A DNA stretch of 40,394 bases, from the NCBI GenBank assembly GCA_947372355.1, contig CANBTI010000018.1, forward strand, positions 1 through 40,394, given 5' to 3'. Shown here in pieces: positions 13,757 to 19,546 of the stretch. The stretch is from Bdellovibrionales bacterium. GTDB taxonomy: Bacteria > Bdellovibrionota > UBA1018 > CAIMNF01. The position numbers and the translations under genes are program-made. How positions within the stretch are numbered: position 1 is the stretch's first letter; each line of letters opens with the position of its first letter. Below the pieces are notes generated by a model. It was not told the DNA's origin, ran no database searches, and was given only the letters and a program-made list of their open reading frames with translations.

Positions 13757-16660
13757 ATGAATGAGCAGCAACTTGAAATTATCAGCTCTTTTGGTGTCGG
13801 CCAGGCCGTCATCGCTGGAGCAGGCTGCGGTAAAACCACGACATTAGTCGCCAAATGTATAGCGCTACTCAAGGAACGCCCCAAAGCTAGATTTTGTGCT
13901 GTTTCTTTTACCGAAAAATCGGTTCGTGATCTGAAGGAATCTCTCAAAAAGGGTTTTCAAAAAGAAGGCTTTGATTCACTTTATTTACAAGAAATGGGAC
14001 GTCACCATTGGATCAAAACGATTCATGGTCTTTGTTTAAGCATTATTCAAGAATTTCCACTGGAATCAGGACTCTTAGGTGGTGAGCGGATCATTCTTCA
14101 AGATGAAGCGGATCGATTGTGGGAGCGGAGTCTTTACCTGCTTTGGACTAGAAATGAAAACAAAGAAATTTCTCTCGCGGTAGATCGACTCCTTCATCGT
14201 TATTCTAGGGGAATGCTGGAATCTAATTTCAAGCAACTCCGTAGCTTAATTTCCTTTGGTGTTAGCAGTTTTATGGAAAAAGCCATCATTGATCGTGAAG
14301 AGATGAAAGATCTATGGTTGGTATTTCAATCCGTTTTTGATCGTTTTCAACAGTGGAAAATGAAAGCTGGAGCACTCGATTTTAATGATCTTGAGCGCTT
14401 TGCAAGGGTAGCTTTAGAGCATGAATCCGTTCAAAAACATTATCATGAACGTTTTGATTTGGTTTTAGTGGATGAGTTTCAAGATACGAATCCCATTCAA
14501 GGTGAAATTTTAGAAAAGTTAGTTAAACCCGGTTATTTGAATTTATGCATTGTGGGAGATCCTAAACAATCCATCTATCGATTCCGTGATGCAGATGTGA
14601 GTGTGTTCCAGGATCTCACCTTAAAACTGGGTAAAAAACACCTTTTAGATACGAATTATCGAAGTGTTCCAGAAATTATTCATTTTGTGAATCAAGTGTG
14701 TGCTCCGGTTTTTGAAAATGCACAATTAGATTATGAGCCACTTCAAGCAGGGAGAGATTCAAATCCCTTGATTTCAGATCGAGTGATTAAGCTTCAGATC
14801 GAAGATGAGCGGAGTTTAGCTCAATATTTAAAAGAACAACAAAATTCCGGAATTGATCTCTCGGAATATGTCATTTTAGTGAGATCAGTGAGAAAAGATA
14901 AAACTCAAAGATATTTAAATGCACTGGATACAATGCAAATCCCTTATCTTTTAGGCAGTGGTGGTCGCTTTTATGCCGATCCAAGAGTGCGTGAACTGGT
15001 GGCATTTTTAAAAGGATGGTGTTCACCCAATCATACTTTATCTCAAGCAACAGCGCTTAGGTCTCCATGGATTAAAGTGAGTGATCCTGAGTTACTAGAA
15101 TGGAAAGATGATTTTTATGGTTCGTTTTTTCAAAAATCTACTCATCCCATCGCCATTGCGCTCAAAGATTCATACTTAAGCCGGATCCCCCTTAGGCCGG
15201 GAGAGGTATTGGAAAAAATATGGGACTCCCTCGAAGTAGGCAGTGAAATGGAGCTTCCTATTGCTTCACTTTGGCAGAAAGTAGAGGAATTTTCGTCTAG
15301 AGGAAGCCGCTTTGAAGAAGTGGTTCAAGAATTAGTGAAGGCAATTGATGGAGATAAAATTGAAAAAGAAATTCCTACTCCTGCAGAAAAAGGAATGCTT
15401 CGGATCATGACCATTCATGCTTCCAAGGGACTTCAATTTCCTCGAGTCATTTTACTAGATTTTGAAGGTGAATATCGGATGCCCACTGGATCTAATGATC
15501 TCATTTGGAACCGGAAAAAAGGCATTCATCTCTATGTGAGAGATGAAGCGGGTGTGCGAGATCCCGACAATGTTGAAAATCAAAATTGGGCTGAGATGGA
15601 AAAAAGAGCTGCCGTTGCTGAGAGTAAACGCTTATTTTATGTAGCGATTACGCGAGCGCAAGAACAATTGATATTAGGCTGGAAAAAAGATGTAAAAGTT
15701 TCTAAAACTAAAATCCCATCTTTAGCGGCCGATGATTGGCGAACCTGGGTAGATCATTCGGTAGGATTGAGTTTACCCGTGTTAGAAGTGCTTATTTCTG
15801 TAGATCAAAACGCAGTAATGAGTTTAATTGAAAACAATGTTGTTTCTGAACCGATTCAAAATTCAAAACTAATCTTGGATTCTAAGTCTTATCGTCCTCG
15901 TCATTCTGCCAGTGAATGGATGATTTTAAATCAATGTAAACTCAGGTATCAGAGGAAGTTTTTCTCACCCGAATGGGAAGAAGAAAAACAAGTTTTTACG
16001 GATCCATCGCTCAATGAAGAGGCGCCAACTGATGTTGAAAAATTAGGCGAAAAAGTTGCAGAAAAGGGTTTACGGGTTCACAAGCATCTAGAAAATGAAG
16101 ATTGGGATCAGTTGATAGAAGAGTTTGCCACTCCTCTCATAGGTCAAAAAGTAGTGAGTGATCTGAATCATTTACTTCAGTCTCAAGAGAGTCAAGATTG
16201 GAAGATTTTCCGAGAAATCGCTTTTGAGGTTCCTTTTACTGATACAGGAACGGGTGACGAAGCGTTTGTGGGCATGATGGATCGCTTAGAAGTGAATCAA
16301 AAAGAAGGAATCATCAGGGTTTTAGACTACAAATGGACTTTAGCTGAAAAATCACCTGAAGAAATGCGTGAGCATTATCAATTGCAGTTAGAACTTTATT
16401 CATGGGCAGCGATTCAACTTTGTGGTGGAGATTTTGAAGTTCGATCACTGGAAACGAAGTTGATTCATTTTACGCATCAAGGTGTGAAGGTGATTGATGT
16501 GCAAATTGATTTAAATACGCTCCCTAAAACAGTGATGAATTTATTAGCCGAGGCAAGACTCACATTAACGGTTGAAAGATCCCTCCAGCAAAATATCGCA
16601 ACAAAAGGTGAGTATTGCCGGTACTGCGAATTCAAAAATACTTGTCCTGAATTTCAGTAG
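13757..16660 (+). CDS. AddA-like UvrD-family helicase-nuclease
   Basis: Superfamily 1 helicase fused to a RecB-type nuclease, 967 residues, expected to process DNA double-strand ends. Helicase motifs in order: Walker A GAGCGKTT near 21-28, VDEFQDTNPIQ, VGDPKQSIYRFRDADV, LDTNYRSVPEII, MTIHASKGLQFPR and FYVAITRAQEQL. The C-terminal PD-(D/E)XK nuclease has GMMDRLE, LDYKW and QLQLELYSW. Cys residues in LNQCKLRY and YCRYCEFKNTC fit the iron-sulfur staple of AddA/AddB-type nucleases. A GAGGGGG lies just before the ATG. AddA usually works with AddB; none is seen here. It is shorter than typical AddA (about 1200 residues). The topoisomerase VI genes follow 79 bases later. Confidence 0.88.
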   Translation: MNEQQLEIISSFGVGQAVIAGAGCGKTTTLVAKCIALLKERPKARFCAVSFTEKSVRDLKESLKKGFQKEGFDSLYLQEMGRHHWIKTIHGLCLSIIQEFPLESGLLGGERIILQDEADRLWERSLYLLWTRNENKEISLAVDRLLHRYSRGMLESNFKQLRSLISFGVSSFMEKAIIDREEMKDLWLVFQSVFDRFQQWKMKAGALDFNDLERFARVALEHESVQKHYHERFDLVLVDEFQDTNPIQGEILEKLVKPGYLNLCIVGDPKQSIYRFRDADVSVFQDLTLKLGKKHLLDTNYRSVPEIIHFVNQVCAPVFENAQLDYEPLQAGRDSNPLISDRVIKLQIEDERSLAQYLKEQQNSGIDLSEYVILVRSVRKDKTQRYLNALDTMQIPYLLGSGGRFYADPRVRELVAFLKGWCSPNHTLSQATALRSPWIKVSDPELLEWKDDFYGSFFQKSTHPIAIALKDSYLSRIPLRPGEVLEKIWDSLEVGSEMELPIASLWQKVEEFSSRGSRFEEVVQELVKAIDGDKIEKEIPTPAEKGMLRIMTIHASKGLQFPRVILLDFEGEYRMPTGSNDLIWNRKKGIHLYVRDEAGVRDPDNVENQNWAEMEKRAAVAESKRLFYVAITRAQEQLILGWKKDVKVSKTKIPSLAADDWRTWVDHSVGLSLPVLEVLISVDQNAVMSLIENNVVSEPIQNSKLILDSKSYRPRHSASEWMILNQCKLRYQRKFFSPEWEEEKQVFTDPSLNEEAPTDVEKLGEKVAEKGLRVHKHLENEDWDQLIEEFATPLIGQKVVSDLNHLLQSQESQDWKIFREIAFEVPFTDTGTGDEAFVGMMDRLEVNQKEGIIRVLDYKWTLAEKSPEEMREHYQLQLELYSWAAIQLCGGDFEVRSLETKLIHFTHQGVKVIDVQIDLNTLPKTVMNLLAEARLTLTVERSLQQNIATKGEYCRYCEFKNTCPEFQ

Positions 16661-16739: not shown

Positions 16740-18383
16740 ATGTCAGAAAAAAAAATCTCGAGTAGCAGTACAGCGGAATATTTCTCCAAAAACTTGCAGC
16801 AAGTTGGCTTTTCGAGTCAAACAAAAGCGGTTCTCACCACGCTCAAGGAAGCCGTGGATAACGCTCTTGATGCTTGTGAAGAACATGGCATTTTACCCGA
16901 GTTAAAAGTAGAAATTGAGAGATTAGGTGCAGGTTCAATTAAGAATTCTGAACGCATTCGTGTACTCGTAACCGATAATGGTCCGGGTATTGATGCAGAT
17001 GATCTACCTAAGGTTTTTGGTGAGTATCTTGCCTCCTCAAAGTTCGGTCGGGGACGTTGTACCCGTGGACAACAGGGGATTGGTATTTCCGCTGCAACCA
17101 CATGGGCACAGATGACTTGTGCGCAGGGTGCCAAAGTTATTTCAAAAACAAAAGCCATGCGTAAGGCAGTCTCTGCGGTCATCGAAGTTGATATTAAAAA
17201 CAACAAAGGGATCGTGAAGAAACGTGAAACAATTGATTGGGATCGCCCTCAAGGAACTCAAGTGGAGTTCGTTTTTGATGGTCGTATTCAAGTAAACGGT
17301 GAAGCCGGAATCATGAATTATCTTTTGGGTACAACACTGGTGAATCCCCATTTAACTCTTCACTACCAATTGCCAGATCAAGAAGTAGTAACCGTTGATC
17401 GAGTGAGTAATGAAGTTCCTGCAATTCCAGATGCAGCAGATCCTCATCCACATACGATGAAATTGGGAGAATTTATTTCTCATTCTCATCTTTTTGGTCG
17501 TGTAAAAGTTTCTGCATGGTTAAAAAAAGGCTTCAGTAGAATCTCCGATCAAGTGATTGAAGACATGATTAAAGTAAAAGAAAACGGTTTAAATCGTGCT
17601 CTTTTTGATAAAAATGTGGATCAATTGGCAAACCCGGAATTCACTAAAATTTTTGCTGCGATTCAAAATACTGAACTGAAAGCACCTTCCACATCTTCAG
17701 TGTTGAGTATTGGGGAAGATTCCTTATCTAAAAGTATTCTTCGTTTAGGAAAAGTGGATTTCTTTTCAGTCGTGAGTCGTAAACCCACTATTTGTGATTT
17801 TAAGCCGGTTCAAGTAGAAGTTGCCATTGCTCGTTTAGAACAAAAAAATATGGACGCGGATTCTCCGGTGCAATTACTTCGTTTTGCTAACCGTGTGCCT
17901 TTGCAGTTTGATAAATCTGCATGTGCAATTGCTCAAGCAATCACTACCGTAAATTGGCGTTCATACGGATTAGGACAACCTAAAGATGCAATGCCACAAG
18001 GTCCCTATATTTTTGCAGTTTCCGTAGTTTCTCCCTTCATTAAATTCAAAAATGCTTCAAAAGAAACCATTGATGCTTCTGATGAATTGGTTGAAGAAAT
18101 TCGCCGTACTTTAATGCAAGCGGGACAAAAACTTTCCCGTTACATCAATGCTGAAGATAAGGCCAATGACCTTGAAGAAAAGTTACGTTATATCGAACAA
18201 TTTGGTCCGATTTTAGTGGATGGATTAGCTCGAATCACTGGTGCAAAAGAAGATCAGAAGAAAAGAGCACGCGAAGGATTAATGAAACTTTTGGGTAGAG
18301 ATACTTCCTCTGCTGAAAAAGAATTGTCAGCAGCAAATCAAAAGTTAGCAAAACAAGAAGCAAAGACATCAGAGGCTGAATAA
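16740..18383 (+). CDS. top6B: DNA topoisomerase VI subunit B (GHKL ATPase subunit)
   Basis: ATP-gated subunit of a type IIB topoisomerase, which passes one duplex through a double-strand break made by subunit A. GHKL Bergerat fold: N-box EAVDNALDA (E37, D40, N41, D44), VTDNGPGID at 78-86, and RGQQGIG at 109-115. The opening STAEYFSKNLQQVGF mirrors archaeal Top6B. A central HPHTMKLGEF and FSRISDQVIEDM fit the H2TH region, and the transducer contains LRFANRVPLQFD, TTVNWRSYGLGQ and SPFIKFKNASKE, all family-specific. The 547 residues match the usual length of about 530. There is no strong Shine-Dalgarno. Two bases separate it from the subunit A gene. Bacteria use gyrase and topo IV, so this is an extra, unusual enzyme. 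Confidence 0.93.
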   Translation: MSEKKISSSSTAEYFSKNLQQVGFSSQTKAVLTTLKEAVDNALDACEEHGILPELKVEIERLGAGSIKNSERIRVLVTDNGPGIDADDLPKVFGEYLASSKFGRGRCTRGQQGIGISAATTWAQMTCAQGAKVISKTKAMRKAVSAVIEVDIKNNKGIVKKRETIDWDRPQGTQVEFVFDGRIQVNGEAGIMNYLLGTTLVNPHLTLHYQLPDQEVVTVDRVSNEVPAIPDAADPHPHTMKLGEFISHSHLFGRVKVSAWLKKGFSRISDQVIEDMIKVKENGLNRALFDKNVDQLANPEFTKIFAAIQNTELKAPSTSSVLSIGEDSLSKSILRLGKVDFFSVVSRKPTICDFKPVQVEVAIARLEQKNMDADSPVQLLRFANRVPLQFDKSACAIAQAITTVNWRSYGLGQPKDAMPQGPYIFAVSVVSPFIKFKNASKETIDASDELVEEIRRTLMQAGQKLSRYINAEDKANDLEEKLRYIEQFGPILVDGLARITGAKEDQKKRAREGLMKLLGRDTSSAEKELSAANQKLAKQEAKTSEAE

Positions 18384-18385
18384 TT

Positions 18386-19546
18386 ATGGGATTACGTAAA
18401 GGTGGTAAAGTTAAAAGTGATATACCAATTATTAGTAAAGAATTGTGCTTAAGATTACTCAACGATCTAGAAAAAGCTAAGCGCCCTGTATTATACGCAA
18501 CAAAATGTTCTCTTGATAATGCTATTTATAATCACAAAGTAGGGTATTTAACTCCAGGATCTAAAAAAGTAGCGACCGAATTAAACGTGAGTTCTGTGAA
18601 AAAAATGTCTCGCGCGGTATTCATGCTTGAAATTTTGCTCGGCAATATTGATACCGGTGCCGTGAATACAAAAAGAGAGTTGTACTACATGAGTAAGGGT
18701 GCCATTAAAAGCACTCCTGCACTCAAGCCTCTCGATTTTGCCGATCAGCCCGAATCCGATGATACCATCGACTTTATTTGTGAATTGATGGAATGTTATC
18801 GTGAAGATATTAACTGTTATGCCAATGATCGCGGTGGCCAAACTTATTCTCAGCAATTAATTGTGACTGAAACAATGACCGATGGAACGATTGCAACCAT
18901 TGATTTATCAAAACTCGGAACATCGCCATTTCAGCCAAAAAATAGACCTCAAAACTTAAAGCTTTCGACGAGTAAAAAAATTGATTTCGCATTGATTGTA
19001 GAATCAGAAGGTACCGCCAATACCTTAGTGGCGAATGGATTTACGAAAAGAAATAATTGTATTGTGATCGGTTCTCAAGGGGTTCCTTCTAATGCAGTTC
19101 GTGGGTGGTCTAAACTCATTCAAGATCAATTGAAGATTCCACTTTATTTCTTCGGAGATCTCGATGCGTACACCCTTCAAAATATTTATCGTACTTTAAA
19201 GGCAGGTTCTGCTGCTTCATTGATTCGGAATCAAGATTACAGTGCACCGGATGTTAAGTTTTTAGGTGTGTTACCTGAAGACATTAAAAAATACGATCTA
19301 TTCGATTACCCGGTGAAAGAACACGATGCTCAAGAAGGACGTGCTTTGAAAAAAGCTTCTGATGCTCTAAAAAATGATCCATTTTTCCAAGATAAGAAAA
19401 ACCGTGGATTAGCTGATATTTTAAATTGGTTACTGAAGAACAAGCGTCGTTGTGAGCAGCAAGCATTTTTCTCAGTGAATCCTAAAGATCCAACCATGCC
19501 TGAGAAGATCATTTTAGATAAAATCAAACGCGGAAATTACGTTTAG
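18386..19546 (+). CDS. top6A: DNA topoisomerase VI subunit A (Spo11-type DNA-cleaving subunit)
   Basis: DNA-cleaving subunit of topoisomerase VI, homologous to meiotic Spo11; 386 residues, close to archaeal length. The 5Y-CAP winged helix carries the catalytic Tyr in TKRELYYMS (Y101 by analogy with Spo11 RDxYY-type motifs). The Toprim domain has the acidic residue in LIVESEGT (E206) and the DxD pair in FFGDLDAYT (D258, D260), the metal-binding residues for cleavage and religation. The helix LQNIYRTLKAGS after DxD matches archaeal members. Two bases downstream of top6B, so translation is coupled. It ends 2 bases from a convergent gene with no obvious terminator between. Seen: all catalytic residues; inferred: an active heterotetramer. 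Confidence 0.92.
   Translation: MGLRKGGKVKSDIPIISKELCLRLLNDLEKAKRPVLYATKCSLDNAIYNHKVGYLTPGSKKVATELNVSSVKKMSRAVFMLEILLGNIDTGAVNTKRELYYMSKGAIKSTPALKPLDFADQPESDDTIDFICELMECYREDINCYANDRGGQTYSQQLIVTETMTDGTIATIDLSKLGTSPFQPKNRPQNLKLSTSKKIDFALIVESEGTANTLVANGFTKRNNCIVIGSQGVPSNAVRGWSKLIQDQLKIPLYFFGDLDAYTLQNIYRTLKAGSAASLIRNQDYSAPDVKFLGVLPEDIKKYDLFDYPVKEHDAQEGRALKKASDALKNDPFFQDKKNRGLADILNWLLKNKRRCEQQAFFSVNPKDPTMPEKIILDKIKRGNYV

Follow-up and report, generated by a model that had tools for sequence, protein, structure and literature searches.

What does a complete type IIB topoisomerase do on the chromosome of a bacterium, and does it work beside the type IIA enzymes or in place of one of them? This question was raised by a locus of a Bdellovibrionales bacterium (assembly GCA_947372355.1, contig CANBTI010000018.1), in which the stretch of 40,394 nucleotides analyzed here (hereafter the window) carries the genes top6B and top6A side by side. 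We regard their products as a bona fide DNA topoisomerase VI (topo VI), predicted to be a heterotetramer of two Top6A and two Top6B subunits, which most likely serves as the chromosome decatenase in place of topoisomerase IV (topo IV). Three points argue for this view, namely the single GyrA-type gene in the genome of this bacterium, the copy-number pattern of the type IIA genes across its phylum, and an apparent exchange of the two enzyme types in one gene slot of phages.

The original prediction, made from the sequence alone, had placed a complete Top6B-Top6A pair at positions 16740-19546, and the open reading frames, profile searches, and matches to PDB sequences confirmed it. On the forward strand, as are all the features of the window given below, top6B (16740..18383; topoisomerase VI subunit B, 547 aa) is followed by top6A (18386..19546; topoisomerase VI subunit A, 386 aa), with two bases between the stop of the former and the start of the latter. 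Top6B matched NCBIfam NF003218 (topo VI subunit B) with an E-value of 1.1e-156 and 522 bits (cut-off 274), in one stretch of residues 3-544, within which the H2TH domain of the subunit would lie. The matches of Top6B to TIGR01052 (396 bits; cut-off 380.7), the transducer PF09239 (E 6.7e-44; residues 316-481 at 17685..18182, with the conserved lysine at 441), and HATPase_c PF02518 (E 4.5e-10) were above the cut-offs as well, and both the GHKL ATPase and the type IIB transducer of subunit B were thus found. Top6A matched the Toprim profile PF21180 (E 8.5e-38), TP6A_N PF04406 (E 6.9e-12), and NF003335 (E 8.2e-117), the last with 390 bits and below the equivalog cut-off of 424. This cut-off suits a narrower group, since 123 out of the 172 genomes of the phylum Bdellovibrionota that match (see below) scored below it and 49 above; Top6A of the window is not filed under the NF003335 equivalog and is taken as a topo VI subunit A from its other features. 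In the PDB search, Top6B and Top6A hit 2q2e_B (E 8e-85) and 1d3y_A (E 5e-32), respectively, and the matches at E <=0.001 were exclusively chains named topo VI (five distinct sequences for Top6B and four for Top6A). The structures 2q2e, 2zbk, and 1d3y, which we take to be the topo VI of M. mazei, S. shibatae, and M. jannaschii, respectively, are alike to the window's enzyme in domain content, catalytic residues, and the two separate subunits but distant in sequence (Top6A scored 58-115 bits to the solved chains).

The best NCBIfam matches of Top6B other than topo VI were a histidine kinase (E 4.3e-4) and MutL (E 4.7e-4). These weak GHKL cross-matches, together with the missed NF003335 cut-off, might be read as a sign of a misidentified GHKL/Toprim pair, such as GyrB, MutL, topoisomerase VIII, or a defence nuclease. 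We find this hardly credible, as both cross-matches were far below the cut-offs, subunit B scored above its equivalog cut-off, the PDB matches were long, and the catalytic residues of both subunits were present; the comparison with Top6A and Top6B profiles proposed with the original prediction returned topo VI as the best match. Topoisomerase VIII, a type IIB enzyme found on mobile elements, is reduced in size or has fused subunits, and this description sets it apart from the window's separate subunits that match the topo VI profiles near full length.

Alignment with the PDB sequences located all the catalytic features that had been named from the sequence. In Top6B, these are the N box KEAVDN (residues 36-41; 16845..16862), the G1 box DNGPGI (residues 79-84; 16974..16991), and the G2 box RGQQGIG (residues 109-115; 17064..17084) of the GHKL fold, besides the transducer. 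In Top6A, the second tyrosine of TKRELYY (Tyr101; codon 18686..18688) aligned to the second tyrosine of REAYY in 1d3y, presumably Y103 of M. jannaschii if the chain begins at residue 69, and the winged-helix catalytic tyrosine of subunit A was thus found by sequence alignment alone. The Toprim domain (residues 201-367; 18986..19486) holds E206 and the DLD motif with D258 and D260, which aligned with the Toprim glutamate and DxD, respectively. The G1 box was invariant as D80 N81 G82 P83 G84 (numbering of the first row of alignment A2), and so were Y100, Y101, E206, D258, and D260 across 21 Top6A sequences. When the two genes were compared with those of four relatives in the family of the window (f1), silent sites were saturated (pS of 0.85-0.95) and replacement sites were little changed (pN of 0.11-0.18); therefore, both top6B and top6A are under strong purifying selection. 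The intact residues and this selection agree with the earlier claim of a functional system, in that the genes look functional.

Most of the 290 Bdellovibrionota genomes that we drew evenly from the phylum (162 genera; draft assemblies) have topo VI: a Top6A profile match was found in 172 of the genomes and 105 of the genera, and the window pair is ordinary for its phylum. With this count, a rarity or a contamination of one assembly was ruled out. A strong Top6B match was found by eye in five of the 118 Top6A-negative genomes (G080, G121, G169, G194, and G075), and the contig of G121 stops just past Top6B. Among 282 genomes of Myxococcota, 60 matched Top6A with a maximum of 279 bits and none above the cut-off, and the NF003335 scores of the listed full-length proteins of families f1 and f13 were above this maximum. 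The occurrence of type IIB enzymes in bacteria, described as only sporadic in the original prediction, was thus understated at least in the phyla examined. A scan of named genomes with two peptide patterns, one of which was RGQQGIGI, recovered at least 573 relatives, and the best 80 of them came from archaea of the DPANN group and from bacteria of more than seven named phyla.

The assembly containing the window (2.73 Mb, 125 contigs, 93% complete, one Top6A) has one PF00521 (GyrA/ParC) match, which bears a GyrA-box-like motif, and one PF00986 (GyrB/ParE) match; no second gene of the GyrA/ParC or GyrB/ParE family was found in this draft at its completeness of 93%. In the phylum, the 172 Top6A-positive genomes had one PF00521 match in 161 cases, none in 5, and two or more in 6, so that 166 of the 172 had at most one in the survey that the original prediction had called for. 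Among the 118 Top6A-negative genomes, two or more matches were found in 87, one in 30, and none in 1, and the PF00986 counts were consistent with those of PF00521 in the 26 genomes tried. The 87 genomes comprised 84 of the 96 members of family f15, in which Top6A was never detected (0/96), and three members of f9. The second PF00521 copies of f15 and f9 were without a GyrA-box-like motif in all of the six sequences read (four from f15) and formed two separate long-branch groups in the GyrA tree, which, like the Top6A and Top6B trees, carries the long-branch warnings of the program. In that tree, f15 and the topo VI-bearing f14 grouped together with support values of 94/88, a grouping not starred. 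The ParC-like protein of f15 is about 480 aa, far shorter than GyrA, in G008, G016, G024, and G059 (L052, L151, L051, and L150, respectively). Four of the six Top6A-positive genomes with multiple PF00521 matches had gyrA split over contigs or frames (G002, G051, G214, and G223), and a fifth, G022, possesses a second type IIA pair with a GyrA-box-like motif.

Several observations weigh against topo VI being a strict substitute of topo IV. The sixth of the genomes above, G030 (73% complete), has a ParC-like fragment and may hold both enzymes. In G241 (f13, 97% complete), no Top6A was found, the Top6B profile matched only weakly (E 5.5e-6), and PF00521 was present once, a combination that speaks against a strict need for the enzyme; G196 of the same genus carries topo VI, and G241 may have lost it or have a gap in its assembly. 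In families f11, f17, and f19 (6, 1, and 2 genomes, respectively; PF00986 was counted once in four of the nine), topo VI was not found and type IIA genes did not occur in a second copy, and gyrase alone may therefore suffice in this phylum. The association between Top6A and the second type IIA enzyme gave a p value of 1.7e-39 in a Fisher test that ignores kinship, ParC changed its state only twice on the GyrA tree (42 rows), and an independent-pairs test of the exclusion yielded a p value of 1 with no power, remaining powerless when G030 was treated as ParC-positive or when three isolated absences were omitted. Because of the only two changes in the ParC state, the exclusion pattern is striking but not a statistical proof. 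In addition, 50 topo VI genomes outside the sample, from among the 80 loci fetched, were searched, 49 of which are outside the phylum (one archaeal), the other being Bacteriovoracaceae bacterium UBA2394. PF00521 matched once in 40 of the 50 (39 of the 49), twice in 8, and never in 2; of the eight, G296, G298, and G301 have two full-length genes, G295 and G319 may have a second gene, and the remaining three have pieces of one gene. Finally, we found no biochemistry on an enzyme of the window's lineage.

An alternative built on such cases is that gyrase decatenates and topo VI is an accessory, relaxing positive supercoils or serving a special phase, for instance, filamentous growth in prey. Families f11, f17, and f19 appear to manage with a single type IIA enzyme, and topo VI and topo IV coexist in some other bacteria, as stated in the available portion of PMC11302465 and as our PF00521 counts may suggest. 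We consider the accessory role unlikely, since the wide retention of topo VI in the families that have it and the conservation of the protein despite saturated silent sites argue for an important role, and since f15 and f9, equipped with a second type IIA gene, are without topo VI.

The strand-passage cycle of the topo VI family is known, and its hallmarks are ATP-dependent strand passage and cleavage that leaves 2-nt overhangs. From the similarity to this family we infer the activity and cellular role of the window enzyme as follows: ATP binding would close the GHKL gate of Top6B, Top6A would cut one duplex via Tyr101 with the metal site of Toprim, and a second duplex would pass through the break prior to resealing. 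In the cell, the enzyme would unlink sister chromosomes and remove catenanes and precatenanes, while gyrase would supply negative supercoils. In the part of PMC8837201 available to us, the strand-passage cycle of the family is described and a preference of topo VI for decatenation is reported; M. mazei topo VI reportedly rescues an E. coli parE mutant, a result given as unpublished in the portion consulted of PMC11302465.

The phylogenetic check suggested for the pair placed the lineage of the window in a single clade with support values of 100/100 in both the Top6A and Top6B trees, on a stem of approximately 4-6 changes per column; the outgroup is biased, consisting of the best matches to an f12 sequence, two haloarchaeal plasmid records, and PDB fragments. 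A second lineage, found in f12 and f16, grouped with DPANN, Planctomycetota, Myxococcota, and others apart from this clade. In the Top6A tree, the f16 member G040 and UBA2394, the latter placed in Bdellovibrionota by NCBI, grouped together with 99/78, and two further f16 rows joined them with 100/99. The topo VI of f12 and f16 (and UBA2394) is alike to that of the window in enzyme kind and gene order, but belongs to a different clade. Within the window's lineage, the topo VI of f7, which belongs to the class of the window, grouped with that of f13 with 100/99, and the topo VI of f8 with that of f23 with a weak support of 81/61; these groupings suggest transfer of topo VI inside the phylum. Separately, in 16 of the 59 loci with a full-length Top6A (80 fetched), a Top6B near the f12 type was adjacent to a distant Top6A (<300 bits, against >450 in the other 43), and the subunits of these mixed operons seem to have different histories. 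The 16 loci (L180, L183, L185, L197, L198, L202, L204, L207, L209, L211, L215, L220, and L222-L225) are of Nitrospira, Elusimicrobia, some DPANN archaea, and a few others.

Topo VI in this phylum is already in print, as Bd2864 of B. bacteriovorus is given as such in the available portions of PMC11318664 and PMC11302465. In the latter, as far as its available text goes, Allen and Maxwell list B. bacteriovorus among the topo VI bacteria without topo IV, others having both. This enzyme and that of the window are thus of the same kind and the same phylum, and topo IV is reported absent there too, but the window represents another lineage, family f1. In the same portion of PMC11302465, the B subunit of B. 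bacteriovorus was judged to have an anomalous position; both subunits of the window's lineage behave alike in our trees. In the available part of PMC11318664, Top II of B. bacteriovorus is Bd2865 and its Top IV is Bd0005; these are more likely Top6B and gyrase, respectively, in view of the account in the accessible part of PMC11302465 and of G048, in which the gyrase genes lie near 6 kb.

Peptide-pattern scans of viral contigs (2.9 million by the description of the database) detected the window's topo VI lineage in one contig, IMGVR_UViG_3300028558_000016 (L262; 482,156 bp). Its Top6A and Top6B were 76% and 62% identical to those of the window, respectively, kept the catalytic residues, and showed far fewer replacement than silent differences. 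By profiles, L262 encodes a terminase large subunit (PF03237, E 3e-22), a tail sheath, a tail tube, a family B DNA polymerase, and a UvsX-like recombinase, and 37 tRNAs were predicted in the 280 kb read; no PF00521 match was found in L262. Because these genes lie on one contig, we regard L262, on its gene content, as a huge phage whose replication and tail genes are T4-like and not as a bacterial chromosome, albeit it may be a fragment. A scan with the phage polymerase retrieved a related contig, IMGVR_UViG_3300035183_000733 (L263; 374 kb), with a polymerase 65% identical. The two contigs have the marker order in common, namely SprT-like, topoisomerase pair, clamp-like (named from the gene position, with no profile match), polymerase, UvsX, and two unknown genes (4657-13827 in L262 and 2257-13144 in L263). 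The pair is Top6B-Top6A in L262 and a T4-like type IIA topoisomerase in L263. The large subunit of the latter (602 aa) matched PHROG 543 (DNA topoisomerase II large subunit; E 3e-108) and the small subunit (465 aa) matched PF00521 (E 3e-44) and PHROG 551 (E 2e-69). The two-subunit type IIA enzyme of T4-like and jumbo phages (PHROG 543 and 551) thus occupies the same slot as topo VI but differs from it in having Toprim in the ATPase subunit and a small subunit that matches GyrA/ParC. In a third contig (L264/L281), the clamp-like gene is the same and a small type IIA subunit is encoded upstream of it; no large type IIA subunit was found within the stretch examined of L281.

T4-like phages generally carry a type IIA topoisomerase. 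As these phages and two of the three contigs have type IIA, it is probably the older state of the slot and topo VI the newcomer, and the type IIB enzyme of L262 seems to have taken over this slot from a type IIA enzyme. In the best tree, the phage enzyme branched basally to the cellular clade (38/9); with Top6A alone, it stood beside G007, a member of the window's order (87/94), and the Top6B tree resolved neither an inside nor a basal placement. A bacterium of the Bdellovibrionota was the probable donor, because the phage enzyme belongs to their 100/100 clade. Altogether, we lean toward the view that types IIA and IIB are interchangeable modules in Bdellovibrionota and their phages, that L262 swapped its own type IIA pair in place for a topo VI of the window's clade, presumably derived from the host, and that huge phages may have moved topo VI between families.

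A known phage or plasmid gene was rejected as an explanation of the window pair: no INPHARED record matched Top6B or the phage Top6A at E 1e-5, and the plasmid matches were three haloarchaeal records and one weak partial match. A topo VI of the second lineage is present on another viral contig (L232; 35 kb), in which no terminase was matched. For the huge phages LR756504 and LR745206, which have a similar polymerase, this polymerase was the sole match among 13 marker proteins when about 25 kb was compared, and a tail-sheath scan found 12 further contigs. In the available part of an overview of jumbo phages (PMC7824862), their two-subunit topoisomerase is described as nearest to topo IV and the term topo VI is absent. 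No report of a phage topo VI was recognizable by title and the start of the abstract among the papers listed in the literature searches, subscription papers and most preprints being outside their scope.

The gene order B then A, named in the original prediction, was found on one strand in all of the 60 loci with both genes, with a gap of <=50 bases in 59 of them. Outside topo VI, the nearest gene upstream in the window (13757..16660; 967 aa) was identified by profile searches as an AddA/RecB-like protein with a UvrD-type helicase and a PD-(D/E)XK nuclease, and it ends 79 bp before top6B on the same strand. The Spo11 core complex is a break-maker without a strand-passing B subunit, and the window pair might similarly be a maker of programmed double-strand breaks coupled to this helicase-nuclease. 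The neighbor lies immediately upstream of top6B in all five loci of f1 (the window and L060-L063), and distant UvrD-like genes (91-109 bits to that of the window) are within several genes of topo VI in three f10 and three f16 loci. We regard such a role as very improbable: direct adjacency was absent from the 51 other loci analyzed, the f10 and f16 genes differ in place and strand, Top6B retains the full ATPase and transducer, and the copy numbers of type IIA genes point to a topoisomerase function. A general functional link between topo VI and the RecB-like neighbor was rejected on the same restriction to f1 among the 56 loci. Thus, among the roles offered originally, decatenation fits best with the one GyrA-type gene and no second type IIA gene found, and the Spo11 manner was without support beyond the neighbor confined to f1.

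Upstream of top6B on the same strand, 18 of the 56 loci, the window counted among the 56, encode a short HNH endonuclease-like protein (about 87-122 aa; checked against Pfam in three members), often beside BolA- and glutaredoxin-like genes (putative names). These loci (L083, L086, L088, L089, L099-L107, L110-L113, and L117) are all of families f13, f18, f20, and f22-f27, and no HNH endonuclease-like gene was found at the window's own locus. Rfam and tRNA scans of the window gave no matches, and promoter- or terminator-like sites showed no excess over shuffled sequence.

With members that bear a topo VI of either lineage, a second type IIA enzyme, or none of these, Bdellovibrionota is a natural experiment within one phylum, and the phage adds a type IIB enzyme in a type IIA slot within a cluster of DNA replication and recombination genes. 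The value of the finding lies in the exclusion pattern and, mostly, in the phage, where what seems to be the same kind of exchange affected one gene slot. In addition, the phage enzyme makes Bdellovibrionota candidate hosts of a huge phage. Taken together, the phylum and the phage make it a directly testable question whether types IIA and IIB do the same job in bacteria.

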